DNA from: Natronorubrum aibiense
GTDB lineage: Archaea; Halobacteriota; Halobacteria; Halobacteriales; Natrialbaceae
Reading direction: 5' to 3'
NCBI RefSeq assembly: GCF_009392895.1
Contig: NZ_CP045488.1
Coordinates: 2,356,001 to 2,420,000, forward strand
DNA: 64,000 nucleotides
The notes under the pieces were generated by a model, which saw nothing but the letters and a program-made list of their open reading frames with translations, had not been told where the DNA came from and did not search any database. The position numbers were made by a program, and so were the translations under genes. Each line of letters starts with the position of its first letter. Position 1 is the stretch's first letter. This document shows, piece after piece, positions 16,631 through 25,732 of the stretch.

Positions 16631-16700
16631 TGCAAGAGTCATATCGCCACGACTCTCAATCAGCCTCGCGCATGCCGCTGCAAGCTATCGTCACAGTCGC

Positions 16701-17596
16701 CTACCGCAACTGTCGCTCGAGAAACGCACTCTGACGGTCGACGACGTGTTCGAACGTGGCTCCCTGGTAGACGTCGAAGTGGCCGACAGGCAGCCTGATT
16801 CGCTCGACGTCGTCGAGCTTCGAGACCAGTCGCTCGACGGTCCAGGGCGAGATAATCGTACTCGAGTCGCCGCCGTGACGAACACCGGACAGGAGACTTC
16901 GCTGGCAGCCGTGATCGGCCGGTACAACGGGACGGTTGCGAGGATGCGTCCGGGGCACGCGTTTCGAACCGTCGCGCCGTCAGGCACGATCGACTCGAAC
17001 CCGGGCTTCGCGTCGGGTGTGTTCAGGACAGCGAATTCGTCGGGATCGCCGACGAGTGGGACGTAATTCGGGTCACGCCCGGTTGCCGCCCGTGTGAGAT
17101 CCGTGAGTGAGCCGGCAACTGCCCCGCGGACGTACGATACCCCGCCACGCCGAATTAGCGTGGCTGCCGTCGCGAGGCCGTCGGTGAACGGCACCTGCGC
17201 AACGGCCGCGGACACGTCGGGGTCTCGAGCCGCGGTTGTAATGACGTGGCCCCCGCTGAACGACGTTCCCCAGAGGCCGAGTCGATCGCCGTCGATATCG
17301 TCGCGCGACCGGGCATGGGCGAGCGCCGCACGCCAGTCCTCGAGTTGCTGTCGCGGACGAATCTGGTTTCGTGGCGTTCCGTCGCTGTCCCCGAACGTGC
17401 GGTAGTCGAAGACGAGCGCGGCGAGCCCGTGGTCGGCGAACCGTCTCGCAAACGCGGGAAGTCGCCACGTTCGCTCCCCACCGAAGCCGTGTGCCATCAC
17501 AACCACCGGTGGCTCGTCGACGGCAGTCGGTAGGAACAGCTCCCCACGACAGGATGTCCCGGCGCTGGAAAACGAAAGCGACGTCTGTTTGACCAT
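16701..17596 (-). pseudogene. Alpha/beta hydrolase with frameshift
   Basis: The first 240 residues are a clear alpha/beta hydrolase (VVMAHGFGGER, elbow LWGTSFSGGH with catalytic Ser, VFDYRTFGDS). Near 16880 the frame breaks: after CPVFVTAA the matching continuation (TIISPWTVERLV, then LPVGHFDVY with the catalytic His) lies in the adjacent frame and ends at 16701. Reading on in the original frame gives a Ser/Arg-rich tail of no meaning. A one-base deletion explains it; a sequencing error cannot be excluded because all other motifs are intact. Confidence 0.75.
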
Positions 17597-17644: not shown

Positions 17645-18373
17645 CTACGCGTTTTCGATCCGCTCGATTGCATCGTCAAATCGGTCGTTCGGCTGCGCAC
17701 CGACGAGTCGCCCAGCTGTTTCGGCGGCTGGGTTGAAGACGATAAACGTCGGTGTCCCCGACACGCGGAGCGACTGTGCCCGTTCTCCGTCGGTTTCGAC
17801 CTCGGATTCGAGTTCCGATCGACGGTCCTCGAGACAGGACTCGAGAGCCTCGGCGTCGACACCGGAGACCGAACGGGTGTACTCGATGAGATTGTCAGCG
17901 GCGGCCCAGCCCGCGTTCTTCTCGCCCTGTTCGTCGAACACCGCCGTATGCCAGTTCCAGTACGCCGTTGGCTCGTCCTCGCGGACCTGGTCCCAGACGC
18001 ACTTGCTAGCAACTGCGGCGGTCATCGAGTCCGCGCCGAAGTACGCCAGCGGAATGAAAATGATTCGAACCTGCCCCGGCTCGACGTAGTCCGAGACGAG
18101 GCCGGGGAGCGTCTCCCGTTCGAACTGCTCGCAGAACGGACACTGAAAGTCGGTCCAGTAGTAGATCTCGAGCGGCGCATCGGGCGAGCCCATAATCGGC
18201 TTTCCGGCGAGGTCGACGTCCAGCGGGGACGTCTCGTCGGTCGAGTGGAACGTCGCCGACTGGGCGTGGGCGGTGTCCTCGTCGGAGCGTGTAAGATAGT
18301 ACGCGCCGCCAGCACCGAGTGTCACGACTGACCCGGCGAGGAAGGCGCGACGGGATGGCTGATCGAGCGACAT
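17645..18373 (-). CDS. Tat-exported DsbA-like thiol-disulfide oxidoreductase
   Basis: A 242-residue exported thioredoxin-fold protein. The N terminus carries the twin-arginine signal SRRAFLAGSVVTLGAGGAYY. The mature domain has the dithiol CPFC (Cys78, Cys81) and the cis-proline loop SGTPTFIVF. Two further Cys (SKCVWD and ESCLED) could form a structural disulfide. It would act outside the membrane, making or isomerising disulfides, or delivering electrons. It is divergent from two CxxC membrane proteins across a 110-base region containing a perfect palindrome, which suggests a shared thiol pathway. Confidence 0.88.
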   Translation of the reverse strand: MSLDQPSRRAFLAGSVVTLGAGGAYYLTRSDEDTAHAQSATFHSTDETSPLDVDLAGKPIMGSPDAPLEIYYWTDFQCPFCEQFERETLPGLVSDYVEPGQVRIIFIPLAYFGADSMTAAVASKCVWDQVREDEPTAYWNWHTAVFDEQGEKNAGWAAADNLIEYTRSVSGVDAEALESCLEDRRSELESEVETDGERAQSLRVSGTPTFIVFNPAAETAGRLVGAQPNDRFDDAIERIENA

Positions 18374-18422
18374 CTGGTAGTGTGCAGTCGTTCACGGGAC
18401 GTGACTGTAACGGACTCGTCGA

Positions 18423-18439
18423 TTTGCTGAGTCAGCAAA
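18423..18439. promoter_or_regulatory. Palindromic operator candidate TTTGCTGA-G-TCAGCAAA
   Basis: A perfect inverted repeat with eight-base arms and a one-base centre lies in the 109-base region between the divergent dsbA-like gene and the membrane protein pair. Palindromes this long are rare by chance in such a short interval. It is distinct from the TATTGTGC-type box found elsewhere in the window. The binding protein is unknown. Confidence 0.5.
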
Positions 18440-18482
18440 ACAGAGCCGCGCATTTCAGTTCCCCCTGCATCGGTTCACGTAG

Positions 18483-19031
18483 ATGCTCTCGCGGAACTCG
18501 ATTCGGGAACACCTGATGAACCTCTCCGCGGCGGTCTGGTACCCGTTCGAGACGTGGCGAGGAACGATCGGACTCCTCGTCGTCGCATTCGTGACGTACG
18601 TCCTCTTGATCTTGAGTACGATGCCGGAATTTTCGCTCCAGATGCTCGGCGACGGCGTCCACTGGTTCGAGTACGTCCTCGTCTCGTTGACGGAGACGGT
18701 GTACCGCACCGACGGCTGGACCGGACTGGGGACGATCGTCCTCTACGCGCTTCTCTCGGGCGTCGCCATCGTTAACGCCGCTGCACAGCTTCGTATCGTC
18801 GGCCTCTCGAGTCTCACCGACCTGTCCGGTGTGCTCCCCGGCCTCCTCGCATCGGGCTGTGCCAGCTGTGGCGCTGGACTGCTCGGTTTTCTCGGCTTTG
18901 CGGGCGGACTGGCAATGCTACCGTACGACGGCGCGTTGCTTCGCGTCGGTGGCCTCGCGCTTCTGGTGTTTTTCCTCGGGCGGGCTGGCCATCCCGAACA
19001 GTGTGCGATTCCGACGGAGGTGTCGCGATGA
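18483..19031 (+). CDS. Membrane protein with SGCASCGAG motif
   Basis: A 182-residue protein with about four to five hydrophobic segments and a dithiol, SGCASCGAG, at the start of the fourth segment. The ATG at 18516 (MNLSAAV) is an alternative start. It overlaps the next gene by four bases. A CxxC at a membrane boundary, in an operon with a second CxxC membrane protein and opposite a DsbA, suggests transmembrane thiol-electron transfer, analogous to but not homologous in sequence with DsbB/CcdA. I do not recognise a named family. Confidence 0.75.
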   Translation: MLSRNSIREHLMNLSAAVWYPFETWRGTIGLLVVAFVTYVLLILSTMPEFSLQMLGDGVHWFEYVLVSLTETVYRTDGWTGLGTIVLYALLSGVAIVNAAAQLRIVGLSSLTDLSGVLPGLLASGCASCGAGLLGFLGFAGGLAMLPYDGALLRVGGLALLVFFLGRAGHPEQCAIPTEVSR

Positions 19032-19510
19032 CGGCCCCACGCACGCTCGGAGCGATCCGCTCGAATCCACGAGCAGTGTTGTGGGGAACGGTCGCCGCCG
19101 TCGGCGTCTTCTCGCTGGTCGGCCTCGTCACCGGACTCATCCCGAACCCGCTGTACGTTCGGATGGTTCCCCGGACACCGACAGATTACCTGTTTCTGAT
19201 CCTGACCGCGCTGCTGGCGGGTGTCTACACCGCACAGCGGCTATCGACCGACGTCGTCGAGTCCGAACTCGAGGAAGACGACGCGGGCACGGGCTCCGAG
19301 GACCGCTGGGCGATGGGCGGGCTGGCTGGTGGCTTTCTGGCAGTCGGCTGTCCGATCTGTAACGCCTTCCTGCTCGCGCTGTTCAGTTCGTCCGCGCTGA
19401 TGACGTACTTCGATCCGCTTCGGCCGCTGCTCGGTGCCATCTCCGTGGCGCTGCTGGCAGGGCTAATCTACACGCGCCACAAACGCACGTGTCCGACCTG
19501 TGCCACGTGA
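19028..19510 (+). CDS. Membrane protein with GCPICN dithiol
   Basis: A 160-residue integral membrane protein with about four helices. The motif AVGCPICNAFLLALF places a CxxC at the beginning of a helix, and the C-terminal tail ends KRTCPTCAT, a second CxxC. Its ATG overlaps the previous stop (ATGA, 19028-19031), so the two proteins are made together and probably form a complex. Its helices resemble those of its partner in length, so the two may be distant homologues. The function is inferred only from context. Confidence 0.75.
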   Translation: MTAPRTLGAIRSNPRAVLWGTVAAVGVFSLVGLVTGLIPNPLYVRMVPRTPTDYLFLILTALLAGVYTAQRLSTDVVESELEEDDAGTGSEDRWAMGGLAGGFLAVGCPICNAFLLALFSSSALMTYFDPLRPLLGAISVALLAGLIYTRHKRTCPTCAT

Positions 19511-19591: not shown

Positions 19592-20281
19592 TCACTCGGA
19601 CTCCTTCCAGTCGCCGGCCTCTGTCTCGCGAAACTCCTCTTTCGCCTCGCGCTCGCGCGGCCAGAACGCGAGCACGAGAACGCCGACGTAGAACGTTCCG
19701 ACGACCCCTGCGACGACCGCGCCGGGGGCAGACGCGATGGCCGCGGTATCGGGAAAGTTCTCGCCCGGCGCGAAGGCGGTGACGCGAAAGAGCCACGCGA
19801 GACAGAGCACGGTCAGCAGTGCGAAGTAGATGCGCCGCAGCCGGTTCGAGATCGCCTCGAGCAGCGTGATCTTCAACGTCGGTCGCCGGTAGTCGTCACT
19901 GAGATCGGTTCGCCAGTCACTGTGTTCGTCGCGTTGGGATGGATCCAGTGTCGTCGCGAGGAAGTTCTGCTGGAGGAGTCGCACGCGAGCACGATAGACG
20001 TCGTAGTCGCGATATCGCCGCGCCTCGATCAGGAGACGGCCACACCCCAACGAGGACGATGTAGTGGGGGTTGTCGGGGCTCGAGAACGCCCACGTGAGG
20101 ATCGCGGCATCACCGTGACGCTCCACGTCGTCGTTTGGTCGAGCCGCGAACACCAGGTCGTCTCGCGGGCGAGTTCCCCGCGATAGGCGTGACCCAGAAC
20201 CGCATTCAGCACCGAGAGATCGTAACCGAACTCCCGTCTCGGTTCGGTCTGCGTGGACTCGTCGTCGGTGGTGTCGGTCAT
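19592..20281 (-). pseudogene. DUF2270 membrane protein with two compensating frameshifts
   Basis: The start (MTDTTDDES, then DLSVLNAVLGHAYRGELARETTW) and the long C-terminal part (LLIEARRYRDYDVYRARVRLLQQNF onward, with two membrane segments) are typical DUF2270. Between about 20037 and 20107 the annotated frame gives Arg/Ser/Thr-rich nonsense, whereas the adjacent frame gives AILTWAFSSPDNPHYIVLVGV, the family's first membrane segment. One base is missing near 20107 and the frame is restored near 20038, probably by a deletion. The protein may still be made but lacks its first helix. Confidence 0.7.
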
Positions 20282-21611: not shown

Positions 21612-21980
21612 ATGACTGAAACAGCACCTTCGGAGACGGTCGGCGATGGAAGCGGTCCCCAGAAACCCGTCCAACTGGACAGCGTCGCCGACTACGACGA
21701 GTTGCTCGAGACACACGACCTCGTGTTGCTCGAGTTCGTCACGTCGGGTTGTGGGATCTGTGCGTCGATGGAGCCGGTGCTCAGCGCAGTCGCTCGCAGC
21801 GCACCGGGTGCCGTCGCAACGGTAAACGCCGGCCTCGTTCCGGACGTTGCCGACGAGTACCAGATCCGCAGTGTCCCAACGCTCGTCGTCTTGAAAGACG
21901 GCGAGGAGGTCGCGCGCCTCGACGACGGCTTCCAGAGCGCAGAGACGGTCGTCGAACTGCTCGAGACGCACGCAGCGTAA
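21612..21980 (+). CDS. Thioredoxin family protein with CGIC active site
   Basis: A 122-residue thioredoxin-fold protein. The redox dithiol is SGCGICAS rather than WCGPC, and the cis-Pro loop IRSVPTLVVLKDG is intact. The loss of Trp and the Ile in the dipeptide predict a different redox potential from TrxA. ATG 21612 was chosen because it follows the promoter box and TATA position at a leaderless distance; the frame from 21321 has no family similarity upstream. It is a single gene. Confidence 0.9.
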   Translation: MTETAPSETVGDGSGPQKPVQLDSVADYDELLETHDLVLLEFVTSGCGICASMEPVLSAVARSAPGAVATVNAGLVPDVADEYQIRSVPTLVVLKDGEEVARLDDGFQSAETVVELLETHAA

Positions 21981-22144: not shown

Positions 22145-23905
22145 TCAACTCGTGACCGCGAGCCGTTCGTCAGGTCGCTTTTCGGCCGAGACATCTTTTT
22201 CCACGACGAAATCCTCGAGTACGAGCACGTCGAGGCCCATTCCGTAGAAGTCCTTGATCGCCTGTGTCGGCGTCCGGACGATCGGTTCGGCGTGGTCGTT
22301 GAACGAGGTGTTGAGGACGACTGGCACGCCGGTGATGTCGGCGAACTCGGAAATGAGTCGGTGATAGCGCGGGTGCTGGTCCTCGCGGACGGTCTGGGGA
22401 CGCGTCGAATCGTCGGCTGGATGGAGGACGGCCTCGAGGTCGTCTCGCTTCTCGGGGTGGACGTCGTAGGCGTCGATCATGAACGGGGCGGGCTGGCCGT
22501 CGACGAGATCTTCCGCGGCGGCCTCCTCGAGCATCGACGGGGCGAACGGTCGCCACTCCTCGCGGTGTTTGACGAACCGGTTGACCCGATCCCGCGACTC
22601 GATCGACCGCGGATCGGCGAGAATGCTTCGGGCCCCGAGCGCTCGCGGGCCGAGTTCCATCCGTCCCTGGAACCAGCCGACGAGGTCGCCGTCGGCGAGT
22701 CGTTGGGCGACGTACCGCTCGAGTTCGTCGGGTTCCGCGTACGGAATCTTGTTCGTCTCGAGAGTCGACCGAATCTCGTCGGTCTCGTACTCGGGACCGA
22801 AGTAGACTGTGGTCTGGCGGTCGACGTCCGACGGCCGTTGTTGTGACCAGCCCGCACCGAGTGCGAGGCCGGCGTCGTGGGCGACTGGCTGGACGAAGGT
22901 GTCGTCGACGGCCGGCGATTCGCGAACGCACTTGTTCAACTTACAGTTGAGCGCAACCCCGCCTGCGAGCGCGACGTTGCCGGTTCCGAGCTGGTCGACG
23001 GCCGTCTCCGCAATGTCGACGACCGTCTCCTCGAGCAGTTTCTGAGCCGTGTAGGCGAGGTCTTTCTCCCACTGATCGAACTCGCCGGGCGTCTCCGTTC
23101 GCCCGCGACCGAAGGCGTCCTCGAGCGTTTCGACGCCGTGGCCAGTGCCCCACCGCTTTGTCAGTGCGGTCACGTCGTAGTCGGCACCCGTGTCGATCAG
23201 GTCCCGCAGCGTGCGTTCGATCTCGGGGTTCTCCTCGCCGTAGGGTGCAAGTCCCATCACCTTGCCCTCGCCGTTGAACATGTGATAGCCGAGGTACTCC
23301 GTGATGATGGCGAAAAAGAGCCCGAGACTGTTCGGGTGCTCGTACGTGTAGACGCGCTCGAGGCGCTCGCCGTCGGCGTACCAGATCACCGTCGAGTCGG
23401 ACTCGCCTTTGGCGTCCACCGTCAGGACGACTCCCTCGTCGAATCCGGACGGATGAAAGGCGCTCGCCGCGTGACAGCGATGGTGGGGAATCGTCTCGAC
23501 CGGTGGCAGCGGCGTGCCGAACGATTCGAGGCGGTTTTCGATCTGTTGGGTCGGGACGAATCGGCTGCGGAGCTGCATGGTGAGCGTCTGCTCGAGCGCC
23601 GAGAGCTTTCGGCTGAGACCGGGCGCTCGAATCGCGTCGGCCAGGTAGTGTGTCGCGATCTCACTGCGACGCTGAGGTTCGTAGGGCAGCAGAATACGAT
23701 CGAGATCAGTGAGATCCAGATCCCGATGGTCGAGACAGGCCTGAATGGCGTGTTCGGGGAACGTCTCCGGGGCGTGTTTGTCCCGCGTGTATCGCTCTTC
23801 CTCGACGGCGAAGACGGGTGTCCCGTCTTCGAAGAGGACGGCGCTTGGATCGTGCTGTCCGTACAGTCCGATTGCGGGCTTGAACGCGAGTAGATACGTC
23901 GTCAT
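22145..23905 (-). CDS. Carbamoyltransferase of the NodU/CmcH/TobZ family
   Basis: A 586-residue protein. The N-terminal Kae1-like domain has HHRCHAASAF and LTVDAKGESDS, the ADP/carbamoyl-adenylate site is marked by GLFFAIITEYLGY and LAGGVALNCKLN, and the C-terminal domain has FQGRMELGPRALG and VLNTSFNDHAEPIV. The family transfers carbamoyl to hydroxyl groups of sugars or natural products through a carbamoyl-adenylate. No biosynthetic cluster accompanies it here, so the acceptor is unknown; cell-surface glycan modification is one idea. It is divergent from a small HTH regulator. Confidence 0.92.
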   Translation of the reverse strand: MTTYLLAFKPAIGLYGQHDPSAVLFEDGTPVFAVEEERYTRDKHAPETFPEHAIQACLDHRDLDLTDLDRILLPYEPQRRSEIATHYLADAIRAPGLSRKLSALEQTLTMQLRSRFVPTQQIENRLESFGTPLPPVETIPHHRCHAASAFHPSGFDEGVVLTVDAKGESDSTVIWYADGERLERVYTYEHPNSLGLFFAIITEYLGYHMFNGEGKVMGLAPYGEENPEIERTLRDLIDTGADYDVTALTKRWGTGHGVETLEDAFGRGRTETPGEFDQWEKDLAYTAQKLLEETVVDIAETAVDQLGTGNVALAGGVALNCKLNKCVRESPAVDDTFVQPVAHDAGLALGAGWSQQRPSDVDRQTTVYFGPEYETDEIRSTLETNKIPYAEPDELERYVAQRLADGDLVGWFQGRMELGPRALGARSILADPRSIESRDRVNRFVKHREEWRPFAPSMLEEAAAEDLVDGQPAPFMIDAYDVHPEKRDDLEAVLHPADDSTRPQTVREDQHPRYHRLISEFADITGVPVVLNTSFNDHAEPIVRTPTQAIKDFYGMGLDVLVLEDFVVEKDVSAEKRPDERLAVTS

Positions 23906-24020
23906 GAGTCCGTGATAGTTCGCACGTTAGACGGAACCGAAGGCGACACAAAACACTCGTGGCGTTTTGCTGAACCGGCAAATCGTGGCCTATTTGTTCG
24001 ACGGCGGTAATCGACTCGCC

Positions 24021-24380
24021 GTGCAACACGAGGGACAGACGAACTCGGCAGCGATCTTTCAGGTCCTGGCCGACGACTACGCGCGGCGGATCCTCGTCGC
24101 CGCGGATCAGGGGCCGATGACGGCGAAGGCGCTCAGCGAAGCCTGTGATGCCTCGCTCACGACGGTGTACCGTCGCTGCTCGATGCTCCAGGAACACGAC
24201 CTGCTCGAGGAACGAACGTCGGTCGGACCCGACGGCACGCACAGAAGCGAGTTCGAGACGGTTCTCGAGGAACTCCACGTCGACCTCTCGGGTGGTGAAC
24301 TCTCGCTGACGATGGAAACACGCGACGAACTCGCGGACAACTTTACGGCGCTGTGGGACGGGTTGCGAGGAGACAAATGA
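24021..24380 (+). CDS. Winged-helix transcription regulator
   Basis: An ArsR-like helix-turn-helix protein of about 119 residues. The core is FQVLADDYARRILVAA, then MTAKALSEACDASLTTVYRRCSML (recognition helix) and the wing LLEERTSVGPDGTHRSEFE. GTG 24021 is taken as start because a TATA-like TATTTG lies about 30 bases upstream; TTG 23967 is also possible. It is followed by an ATGA-coupled DUF7521 membrane protein, a pairing I know to be common in haloarchaea. It may regulate itself and the divergent carbamoyltransferase. Confidence 0.82.
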   Translation: MQHEGQTNSAAIFQVLADDYARRILVAADQGPMTAKALSEACDASLTTVYRRCSMLQEHDLLEERTSVGPDGTHRSEFETVLEELHVDLSGGELSLTMETRDELADNFTALWDGLRGDK

Positions 24381-24643
24381 TCGAAGTTCCGTTCGTGCTC
24401 GCGAAACTGATTACGCTCGCGTTGAGCCTCGCGGTCGCGTATCTGGCCTATCACGGCTACCGGCGACACGGCCGCGAGCCGATGCTGTACGTCGCCGCCG
24501 GGTTCGTGTTCATCGGAGCCGGCGCGATCTGTGAAGGCCTTATTTATACGATGTTCGGCACGTCGATCCTGTCTGCCGGTCTCATCCAGGCCGCGATCGT
24601 CTCGAGCGGCATGGTGCTCGTGCTCGTTTCGCTGACCAAGTGA
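24377..24643 (+). CDS. DUF7521-type small membrane protein
   Basis: An 88-residue protein with three hydrophobic helices (LITLALSLAVAYLAYHGY, LYVAAGFVFIGAGAICEGL, AAIVSSGMVLVLVSL). It begins in the stop of the HTH gene (ATGA), so it is co-translated. The pattern YHGYRRHGREPMLY between helices 1 and 2 is a hallmark of this haloarchaeal family. It is possibly a membrane partner or sensor for the HTH regulator; the function is not established. Confidence 0.8.
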   Translation: MIEVPFVLAKLITLALSLAVAYLAYHGYRRHGREPMLYVAAGFVFIGAGAICEGLIYTMFGTSILSAGLIQAAIVSSGMVLVLVSLTK

Positions 24644-24663: not shown

Positions 24664-24918
24664 TCAGCGGCTACACGACGTCTCGCAGGTCGAACAGCCG
24701 GTCCGACGGCGCAGAACGACACCGACGACCGAAAGCGTCAGCACGGTCACGAGCACCTGTCCGAGTCCGGCACCCAGTCCGGTGGCGGTGACACCGCCCG
24801 TGACGGCCATCGCTCCCGGCCCGAGACAACAGAGACTCGCCAGTCCCGCGAGTCCGAGCAGCGATCCGCGAGATGCACTCTCCGAGTTCATATCCAGCCG
24901 TAATGCACACGATTTCAT
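24664..24918 (-). CDS. Small Cys-containing membrane protein next to SCO
   Basis: About 84 residues from ATG 24918 (or 75 from ATG 24891, MNSESAS). It has two hydrophobic helices: LAGLASLCCLGPGAMAVTGG with a CC pair at the first, and VLVTVLTLSVVGVVL at the second. The tail is CSTCETSC. Cys-pair helices of this size recall small mercury/heavy-metal transport proteins (MerT/MerF style), but similarity is too weak to name. The divergent gene codes for a copper-chaperone SCO protein, so metal handling is plausible. Confidence 0.6.
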   Translation of the reverse strand: MKSCALRLDMNSESASRGSLLGLAGLASLCCLGPGAMAVTGGVTATGLGAGLGQVLVTVLTLSVVGVVLRRRTGCSTCETSCSR

Positions 24919-25048: not shown

Positions 25049-25732
25049 ATGCATCGCCGTCGGTATCTGTATACGGCTGCCACCGCTGGGATCGTCGGCA
25101 CTGCCGGCTGTCTCGAGTCGCTGCCGGGAACGGGCGATAGTCGAACGGTCCTCGAGCCACCGGAGCAAGACCTGAGCGAGGCGTCCCATCCGTCCTACGA
25201 CGAGGAGCTCCCCGAGTCCACGCTTCCCGATCCGCTGCTCGGCGAGGAAATTTCGACAGCACAGTTCGAGGGCAAGCGAACCGTGTTGATGACATTTATT
25301 TATACGAACTGTCCTGACGGGATGTGCCCGGCGCTGACACAGCGCCTGCGCCGGACACAGGAAGTCGCAGCGGAAGAGGGGTTCGCTGACGAATCGGCGT
25401 TTCTCGCGCTGACGTTCGATCCCGAGCGGGACACGCCAGACGTACTCGAGACCTACGCCGGCCAGCAAGGCGTCGACCTCGATGCCGGCAACTGGCATTT
25501 CCTTCGGCCCGAAACGTACGAGGAGGCACAGCAGGTCGTCTCCGAACAGTACGGCTTGCCACTCGAGAAACGCGACGCCGACCAGTACGAGAACCTCGAG
25601 TACGCGTTCCCGCATTACAATCTGATCTTGCTCGTCAACGATCAGGGGATCGTCGAACGGGCGTACCCGAACGGAGCAACGATCGACATTTCGACGGTCG
25701 CTGACGACTTCGAAACCGTCGTCACCGCGTGA
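25049..25732 (+). CDS. SCO1/SenC-family lipoprotein
   Basis: A 227-residue lipoprotein of the SCO family, which delivers copper to the Cu-A site of cytochrome oxidase or acts as a thiol reductase. Residues 1-21 are an RRR-containing signal ending in a lipobox-like GTAGC. The thioredoxin-fold domain has the metal site TNCPDGMCPA (Cys88, Cys93) and the distal His in AFPHYN. The cysteine spacing is CxxxxC, one residue longer than the family's CxxxC. The TATA box TTTATAT (25020-25026) is 23-29 bases from the ATG, so the message is leaderless. Confidence 0.88.
   Translation: MHRRRYLYTAATAGIVGTAGCLESLPGTGDSRTVLEPPEQDLSEASHPSYDEELPESTLPDPLLGEEISTAQFEGKRTVLMTFIYTNCPDGMCPALTQRLRRTQEVAAEEGFADESAFLALTFDPERDTPDVLETYAGQQGVDLDAGNWHFLRPETYEEAQQVVSEQYGLPLEKRDADQYENLEYAFPHYNLILLVNDQGIVERAYPNGATIDISTVADDFETVVTA

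Follow-up and report, generated by a model that had tools for sequence, protein, structure and literature searches.

A conserved DsbA-linked pair of dithiol membrane proteins in haloarchaea: a candidate membrane partner for an exported thiol oxidoreductase

DsbA-like proteins are encoded in 185 of 195 Halobacteriales genomes, yet about a third of the sample (69/195) has neither DsbB nor VKOR nor the membrane protein called P2 below, which raises the question of how extracytoplasmic thiol chemistry runs in these organisms. The locus described here poses the question in a concrete form. The gene for an exported DsbA diverges from two coupled genes for dithiol membrane proteins, P2 and P3, which the initial annotation of the 64-kb stretch of DNA analysed here (the window) had suggested as a possible electron partner of DsbA and a substitute for DsbB or CcdA. 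Is the pair the partner of this DsbA, and what would it pass on? DsbA and P2, often with P3, very probably form one extracytoplasmic thiol-redox module with P2 as the dedicated membrane partner. A literature search found no description of this DsbA-P2/P3 pairing.

Three genes and their cysteines

The reading of the locus as a Tat-exported DsbA with a CPFC motif, divergent from two coupled membrane protein genes, holds for the twin-arginine start, the coordinates (Table 1) and the 4-nt overlap (ATGA) of the P2 and P3 genes. The DsbA N-terminus contains the twin-arginine motif SRRAFLAGS, and a Tat-like RR motif is present in 60 of 71 orthologue N-termini. CPFC occupies residues 78-81, with the C78 codon at 18140-18142. 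The protein matches PF13462 (E=1.2e-21, 78.1 bits against a curated cut-off of 23.2) as well as PF01323 (E=7e-12, 46 bits against 25.6), and its nearest solved structure is BdbD of Bacillus (3eu3, E=6e-24). Across the 71 orthologues C78 and C81 are found in 100% and P208 (GTPT) in at least 97%; C125 and C180 are further conserved cysteines. The nearest named relatives are Natronorubrum sulfidifaciens, with 98% identity in P2, and N. thiooxidans, with 96%.

Neither P2 nor P3 matches a curated family in Pfam, NCBIfam or PHROGs. Hydropathy and charge indicate four transmembrane (TM) helices with both termini inside for the two proteins, with the CxxC halfway along the third hydrophobic stretch. 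In P2 this is C126/C129 (codons 18858-18869), followed by C174 in the tail (19002-19004); in P3 it is C108/C111 (19349-19360), followed by a tail pair, C155/C158 (19490-19501). The dithiols SGCASCGAG, GCPICN and CPTCAT pointed out at the outset are thus present and, since C126, C129 and C174 are invariant in 57 P2 sequences and C108, C111, C155 and C158 in 37 P3 sequences, they are not chance occurrences. The tail cysteines would lie at the cytoplasmic face, judging by charge.

P2 and P3 are homologous by profile comparison. Their alignment spans 132 columns (E=2.1e-6, probability 89%; reversed control 0.067) when bacterial P3 and remote P2 sequences are taken in, haloarchaeal sequences alone giving a weak result, and it pairs CxxC with CxxC and tail cysteine with tail cysteine. 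AlphaFold models show the third helix broken at the CxxC in both proteins, with low confidence at this very position. The P2 model found no match below E=0.99 in a Foldseek search of the PDB, the P3 model (pLDDT 62) was too poor for a structure search, and solved structures searched with P2 and P3 profiles gave chance matches only.

Two neighbouring genes show irregular frames. The alpha/beta hydrolase gene has a low coding score and its tail apparently goes on in another frame (16701-16958), so that it is probably frameshifted or affected by a sequencing error. The middle ~25 residues of the DUF2270 gene are out of frame relative to its counterpart in a related locus (L095), as if two compensating indels had occurred.

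Table 1. Features of the locus, numbered from the first base of the window
Feature	Position	Strand	Remarks
Alpha/beta hydrolase gene	16691-17596	-	
DsbA-family exported thiol oxidoreductase (P0001)	17645-18373	-	242 aa; PF13462 and PF01323 matches
Operator TTTGCTGAGTCAGCAAA = TTTGCTGNNYCAGCAAA	18423-18439 (extended 18421-18441)		perfect palindrome, 8-bp arms and one central base
P2, 4-TM protein, N-in/C-in, SGCASCGAG	18483-19031	+	182 aa; topology and conservation
P3, 4-TM homologue of P2 (by profile), GCPICN and CPTCAT tail	19028-19510	+	160 aa
DUF2270 gene	19592-20281	-	
Cytosolic-type thioredoxin (CGIC)	21612-21980	+	PF00085 E=4.3e-13; TIGR01068 E=7.5e-15, below cut-off
NodU/CmcH-type carbamoyltransferase	22145-23905	-	operator 61 bp before start
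Second operator copy, 1 mismatch	23966-23982		before HTH5; 61 bp from carbamoyltransferase gene start
HTH5, ArsR-like winged-helix regulator	23985-24380	+	start codon uncertain
DUF7521 membrane protein, HTH5 partner gene	24377-24643	+	PF24365 E=2e-17
Small dithiol protein, MerT/MerF-like	24664-24891	-	75 aa
SCO1/SenC lipoprotein	25049-25732	+	PF02630 E=3.9e-17; cluster neighbour

Association of P2 and P3 with DsbA

Co-occurrence with DsbA in other archaea had been set beforehand as the refutation test of the proposed partnership. Counting strong P2 matches among 195 Halobacteriales genomes, we found P2 in 48, this type of DsbA in 49 and P3 in 50. All 48 P2 genomes also carry this DsbA, where a within-family permutation expects 17.6. 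The single genome with DsbA only holds a fragment that lacks residues 1-97, and with them the active site, and has a frameshift around residue 202; no P2 lies near this remnant, which looks like joint decay of the two genes.

The association is equally visible in gene order. Among 84,980 species genomes scanned, 71 P2 loci turned up, every one of them in haloarchaea; together with the window they make 72. In 70 of them a DsbA gene was called beside P2, on its upstream side. One exception (L162) is an extra P2, the genome having another copy (L169) with DsbA; the second (L182) is a P2 beside a DsbA that was overlooked as a gene by the gene caller, the P2 being the one missed. Natrialbaceae and a few others have the two genes divergent; elsewhere they form a tandem operon, DsbA first, mostly with a 4-nt overlap. 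DsbA and P2 distances correlate with r=0.90, a value to which shared species history adds. Two remote P2 relatives (L148, L149) match the P2 profile weakly, are full-length with the same CxxC and tail cysteine, and each lie directly behind a different DsbA of lipoprotein type or shorter. The link of P2 to this DsbA thus goes well beyond what chance would give. In Halorussus, Haladaptatus, Halogranum and Halomicrococcus the P2-DsbA pairs adjoin one or two superoxide dismutase genes (L177, L179, L182, L194, L199).

P3 is an optional member of the module, being present in 39 of the 48 P2 genomes. Its relatives extend into bacteria, at 28-38% identity with an invariant CPxCN and usually one tail cysteine. 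Two Arthrobacter plasmids and Pseudonocardia have the order DsbA-CcdA-P3 with overlapping ends, Streptomyces NBC_01197 has P3-DsbA-CcdA and Azospirillum DsbD-DsbA-P3; in Arthrobacter ANT_H58, P3 and DsbA-CcdA diverge from each other, and on several Rhodobacterales plasmids P3 and DsbA share one copper/cytochrome cluster. Bacterial P3 operons also hold rhodanese, MBL, TauE, YeeE and DsrE genes, and some bacterial P3 loci lie among copper genes, in contexts that include actinobacteria, with no DsbA within 6 kb. Several P3 entries had been flagged for one internal TGA; selenocysteine was considered and rejected, as these proteins end in CEVC-stop and the aligner had overrun the stop.

The idea of the pair as partner of DsbA therefore stands for P2, by virtue of the 48/48 co-occurrence, the operons and the remote branch, and in a looser form for P3, which is found in bacterial DsbA-CcdA operons. 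A dedicated membrane partner is well supported, and better backed than could be known from the window at first reading. An uncurated partner family that is one-to-one with DsbA, and that has a homologue in DsbA-CcdA operons of bacteria, provides a concrete experimental handle.

Operator, regulator and surrounding genes

The perfect 17-base palindrome noted in the 109-base gap between DsbA and P2 (18374-18482) is a real conserved site. Its distance to the DsbA start is 50 bp, that to the P2 start 44 bp. Bare 8+1+8 palindromes are found six times in the 64-kb window, but the 4.35-Mb genome has just two copies of this sequence with up to one mismatch, both in Table 1. The 72 related loci contain 66 such sites (42 exact, 24 with one mismatch) and the reversed pattern none, which together with the rarity in the genome argues against a chance palindrome. 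The sites are located mainly 42-53 bp from DsbA and 44 bp from P2, the other main positions being before HTH5 and at a distance of 61 bp from the carbamoyltransferase start, and the form conserved across divergent gaps is GATTTGCTGNNYCAGCAAATC. In two loci (L157, L158) DNA is inserted between DsbA and P2, and each side has its own operator copy.

Since the operator is common to DsbA/P2 and the HTH5 gene, HTH5 is the candidate reader; this linkage suggests that it probably binds there. It has a single conserved cysteine, C54, in 96% of 46 sequences. The operator in front of the carbamoyltransferase gene, also seen in related loci (e.g. L159, L168), makes this gene seem a member of the same regulon.

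To characterize the surroundings, 40 P2/DsbA stretches were compared with 37 random 20-kb stretches of the same contigs. Any sulfur gene was found in 29/40 versus 6/37, and individually the rhodanese-MBL persulfide dioxygenase in 25/40 versus 3/37, TusA in 15/40 versus 1/37, DsrE in 12/40 versus 1/37, YeeE in 12/40 versus 0/37 and TauE in 14/40 versus 0/37; thioredoxin was present in 21/40 versus 3/37 and CcdA-like genes in 9/40 versus 0/37, all of these counts being indicative because the stretches are phylogenetically non-independent and were themselves the source of the HMM labels. The module is mostly kept in islands of sulfur oxidation or persulfide detoxification. The thioredoxin of the window is a possible electron donor to the module.

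In Natrinema, Haloterrigena and Natronococcus (L152, L159, L168) the cluster ends with SCO1, TlpA-like and CcdA-like genes, an assembly that is reminiscent of copper-centre maturation and of which the window retains the SCO1 gene only. A copper storage protein (Csp) adjoining in the window was considered as part of the module and rejected, as it occurs in 4/72 loci only. The small dithiol protein has two helices, SLCCLGP in a helix and CSTCE in the tail, with no Pfam match; relatives, labelled CC31 and CC44, adjoin P3 in several loci. The module links DsbA chemistry to sulfane-sulfur and copper stress. PMC11073785 and PMC11582611 deal with the import of thiosulfate or sulfur of the YeeE type and with how it is regulated, and PMC5524982 with a copper-linked DsbA-like ScsC.

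Partner class, direction of transfer and known systems

P2 and P3 do not belong to a known partner class by profile: no match was obtained to DsbB (PF02600) or CcdA/DsbD_TM (PF02683) at E<=1, nor to VKOR (PF07884). With four TM helices and a single CxxC they differ from CcdA, with its two 3-TM repeats each carrying one mid-membrane cysteine, and P2 departs from DsbB in having three invariant cysteines, one of them placed at the cytoplasmic tail by charge.

The initial annotation saw neither DsbB nor CcdA in the window. This is correct for the 64 kb, and for DsbB it extends to the whole genome, which has no DsbB match and no VKOR match; however, one CcdA is encoded far from the locus. CcdA or CcdA-like genes are moreover found in the same operon or cluster at 21 of the 72 haloarchaeal loci, "CcdA-like" being a provisional label since the haloarchaeal genes have no PF02683 match and match an actinobacterial CcdA by profile (probability 91%). 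Because such genes sit in the same operons, those of bacterial P3 included, P2 as a substitute for CcdA is rejected as worded. The substitution claim is half right: P2 would be a new partner and not a simple CcdA replacement, and might at most replace DsbB.

Our best explanation is a dedicated-partner module forming a reductive dithiol relay across the membrane, switched at the operator, which we propose tentatively, at a little under an even chance for the whole. Reducing equivalents would pass from cytosolic thioredoxin to the tail cysteine(s) of P2/P3, on to the intramembrane CxxC and from there to the CPFC of DsbA. DsbA would stay reduced and act on extracytoplasmic disulfides or sulfane sulfur, as DsbD/ScsB do with ScsC, and the module would be switched through the conserved operator, probably by the linked HTH5. 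Taken together, the observations suggest that DsbA and P2 engage in thiol exchange. The outward flow of electrons is favoured by the third P2 cysteine and the P3 tail pair, both placed on the cytoplasmic side, by the recurrent thioredoxin and CcdA-type genes and by a layout nearer to DsbD than to DsbB; as to the cargo, sulfane sulfur or a soft metal may be carried instead. The strongest objection is that the CcdA(-like) proteins of some operons would make a second reductant conduit redundant there. The proximity of DsbA to BdbD, an oxidase, and the anticorrelation of P2 with DsbB, expected of an oxidase partner, also count against a reductive relay, and the weak models at the CxxC, the P2 model without likeness in the PDB and the bacterial P3 loci among copper genes without DsbA count against the explanation as a whole.

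The occurrence of CcdA alongside P3 and P2 keeps a serious rival in play, though we consider it rather unlikely. P2/P3 would carry a thiophilic cargo, which could be sulfane sulfur/persulfide or else a soft metal such as Cu or Hg, from DsbA via the CxxC and the tail cysteines to cytosolic sulfur-transfer proteins in the manner of MerT, CcdA merely keeping DsbA reduced. P3 and CcdA in one operon would then have different jobs, and the sulfur genes near the haloarchaeal loci, like the sulfur or copper genes around bacterial P3, fit such a cargo, although the sulfur island equally suits a plain supply of reductant. The sequence appears to follow the MerT feature order, and the Pfam MerT model is touched by 3 of 13 P3 members (best E=1.4e-6), but the best score, 28.8 bits for a Streptomyces P3, is below the curated cut-off of 32.9, and P2 and P3 of the window have no Pfam MerT match. 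An hhalign comparison of P3 with one MerT gave E=9e-4 and none for P2, the feature order being matched by eye and the topology charge-based. The C-terminal half of the proteins may remotely resemble MerT without being a member of the family. A broader formulation seems possible, if somewhat doubtful: P2/P3 would then make up a DsbA membrane partner class of their own, separate from DsbB, VKOR and CcdA, derived from a MerT-like scaffold and relaying sulfane sulfur (or electrons) between the cytosol and an extracytoplasmic DsbA in archaea and bacteria.

Improbable, in our view, is a DsbB-like role in which P2 re-oxidises DsbA, delivers electrons to quinone and replaces DsbB where this is absent. 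DsbB occurs in 69/195 and VKOR in 39/195 of the Halobacteriales genomes, and P2 avoids DsbB within families (5 genomes with both, 12.4 expected, p=0.001). This, the lack of DsbB and VKOR here and the DsbB-like layout (haloarchaeal DsbB genes are overlapping or divergent with their own DsbA in 3 of 6 loci), fits an alternative partner without fixing the direction of the electrons, and the nearness of DsbA to BdbD agrees with an oxidase. However, P2 and DsbB do coexist in five genomes, P2 and VKOR show no clear link within families, and a gap in known oxidases is common, 69/195 genomes having none of the three, so that P2 as a general stand-in for DsbB is weakened. P2 also has no CxxCWYQR motif and no second extracytoplasmic cysteine pair, and its third cysteine is cytoplasmic by charge. 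Many haloarchaeal VKOR domains in the 195 genomes lie in open frames of 450-520 codons, which suggests fusion proteins. Quite improbable, finally, is that P2/P3 are clients, membrane proteins of another function such as a metal/sulfur channel whose cysteines DsbA repairs or folds, with no role in a relay: P3 is sometimes distant from DsbA or in genomes without it, and has copper contexts in actinobacteria, but P2 is never without DsbA among the 195 genomes, clients of a general foldase are not normally obligate one-to-one companions, and the invariant cytosolic tail cysteine would be left without explanation.

Among known systems, the oxidative pair of DsbA/BdbD and DsbB/BdbC shares with the module an exported thioredoxin-fold DsbA with CPFC and the conserved proline, and an adjoining gene for the membrane partner that overlaps or diverges, as DsbB genes of haloarchaea do with their DsbA; the module differs from DsbB in the features of P2 listed above, including the conserved cytoplasmic-side cysteine. 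The cysteine pair at a mid-membrane helix break, the nearby cytosolic thioredoxin and the copper and sulfur contexts resemble DsbD/CcdA/ScsB with ScsC/TlpA, from which the single CxxC in four TM helices and the additional presence of CcdA-like genes set it apart. Like MerT (PF02411) with MerP, it joins a small membrane protein to an exported thiol protein, and it may have, as judged by eye and from charge, the same order of intramembrane cysteine pair, SGA, [E/D]PxRP loop, helix and cytosolic cysteine, but with CxxC in place of CC, an extra N-terminal TM pair and DsbA instead of MerP. To our knowledge, DsbA-P2-P3 is not among the known parts of bigR/cst-type persulfide detoxification operons, and HTH5 has one conserved cysteine and not a pair. 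The likeness to these operons lies in the persulfide dioxygenase, rhodanese, TauE, YeeE, TusA and DsrE genes that surround the module in archaea and bacteria.
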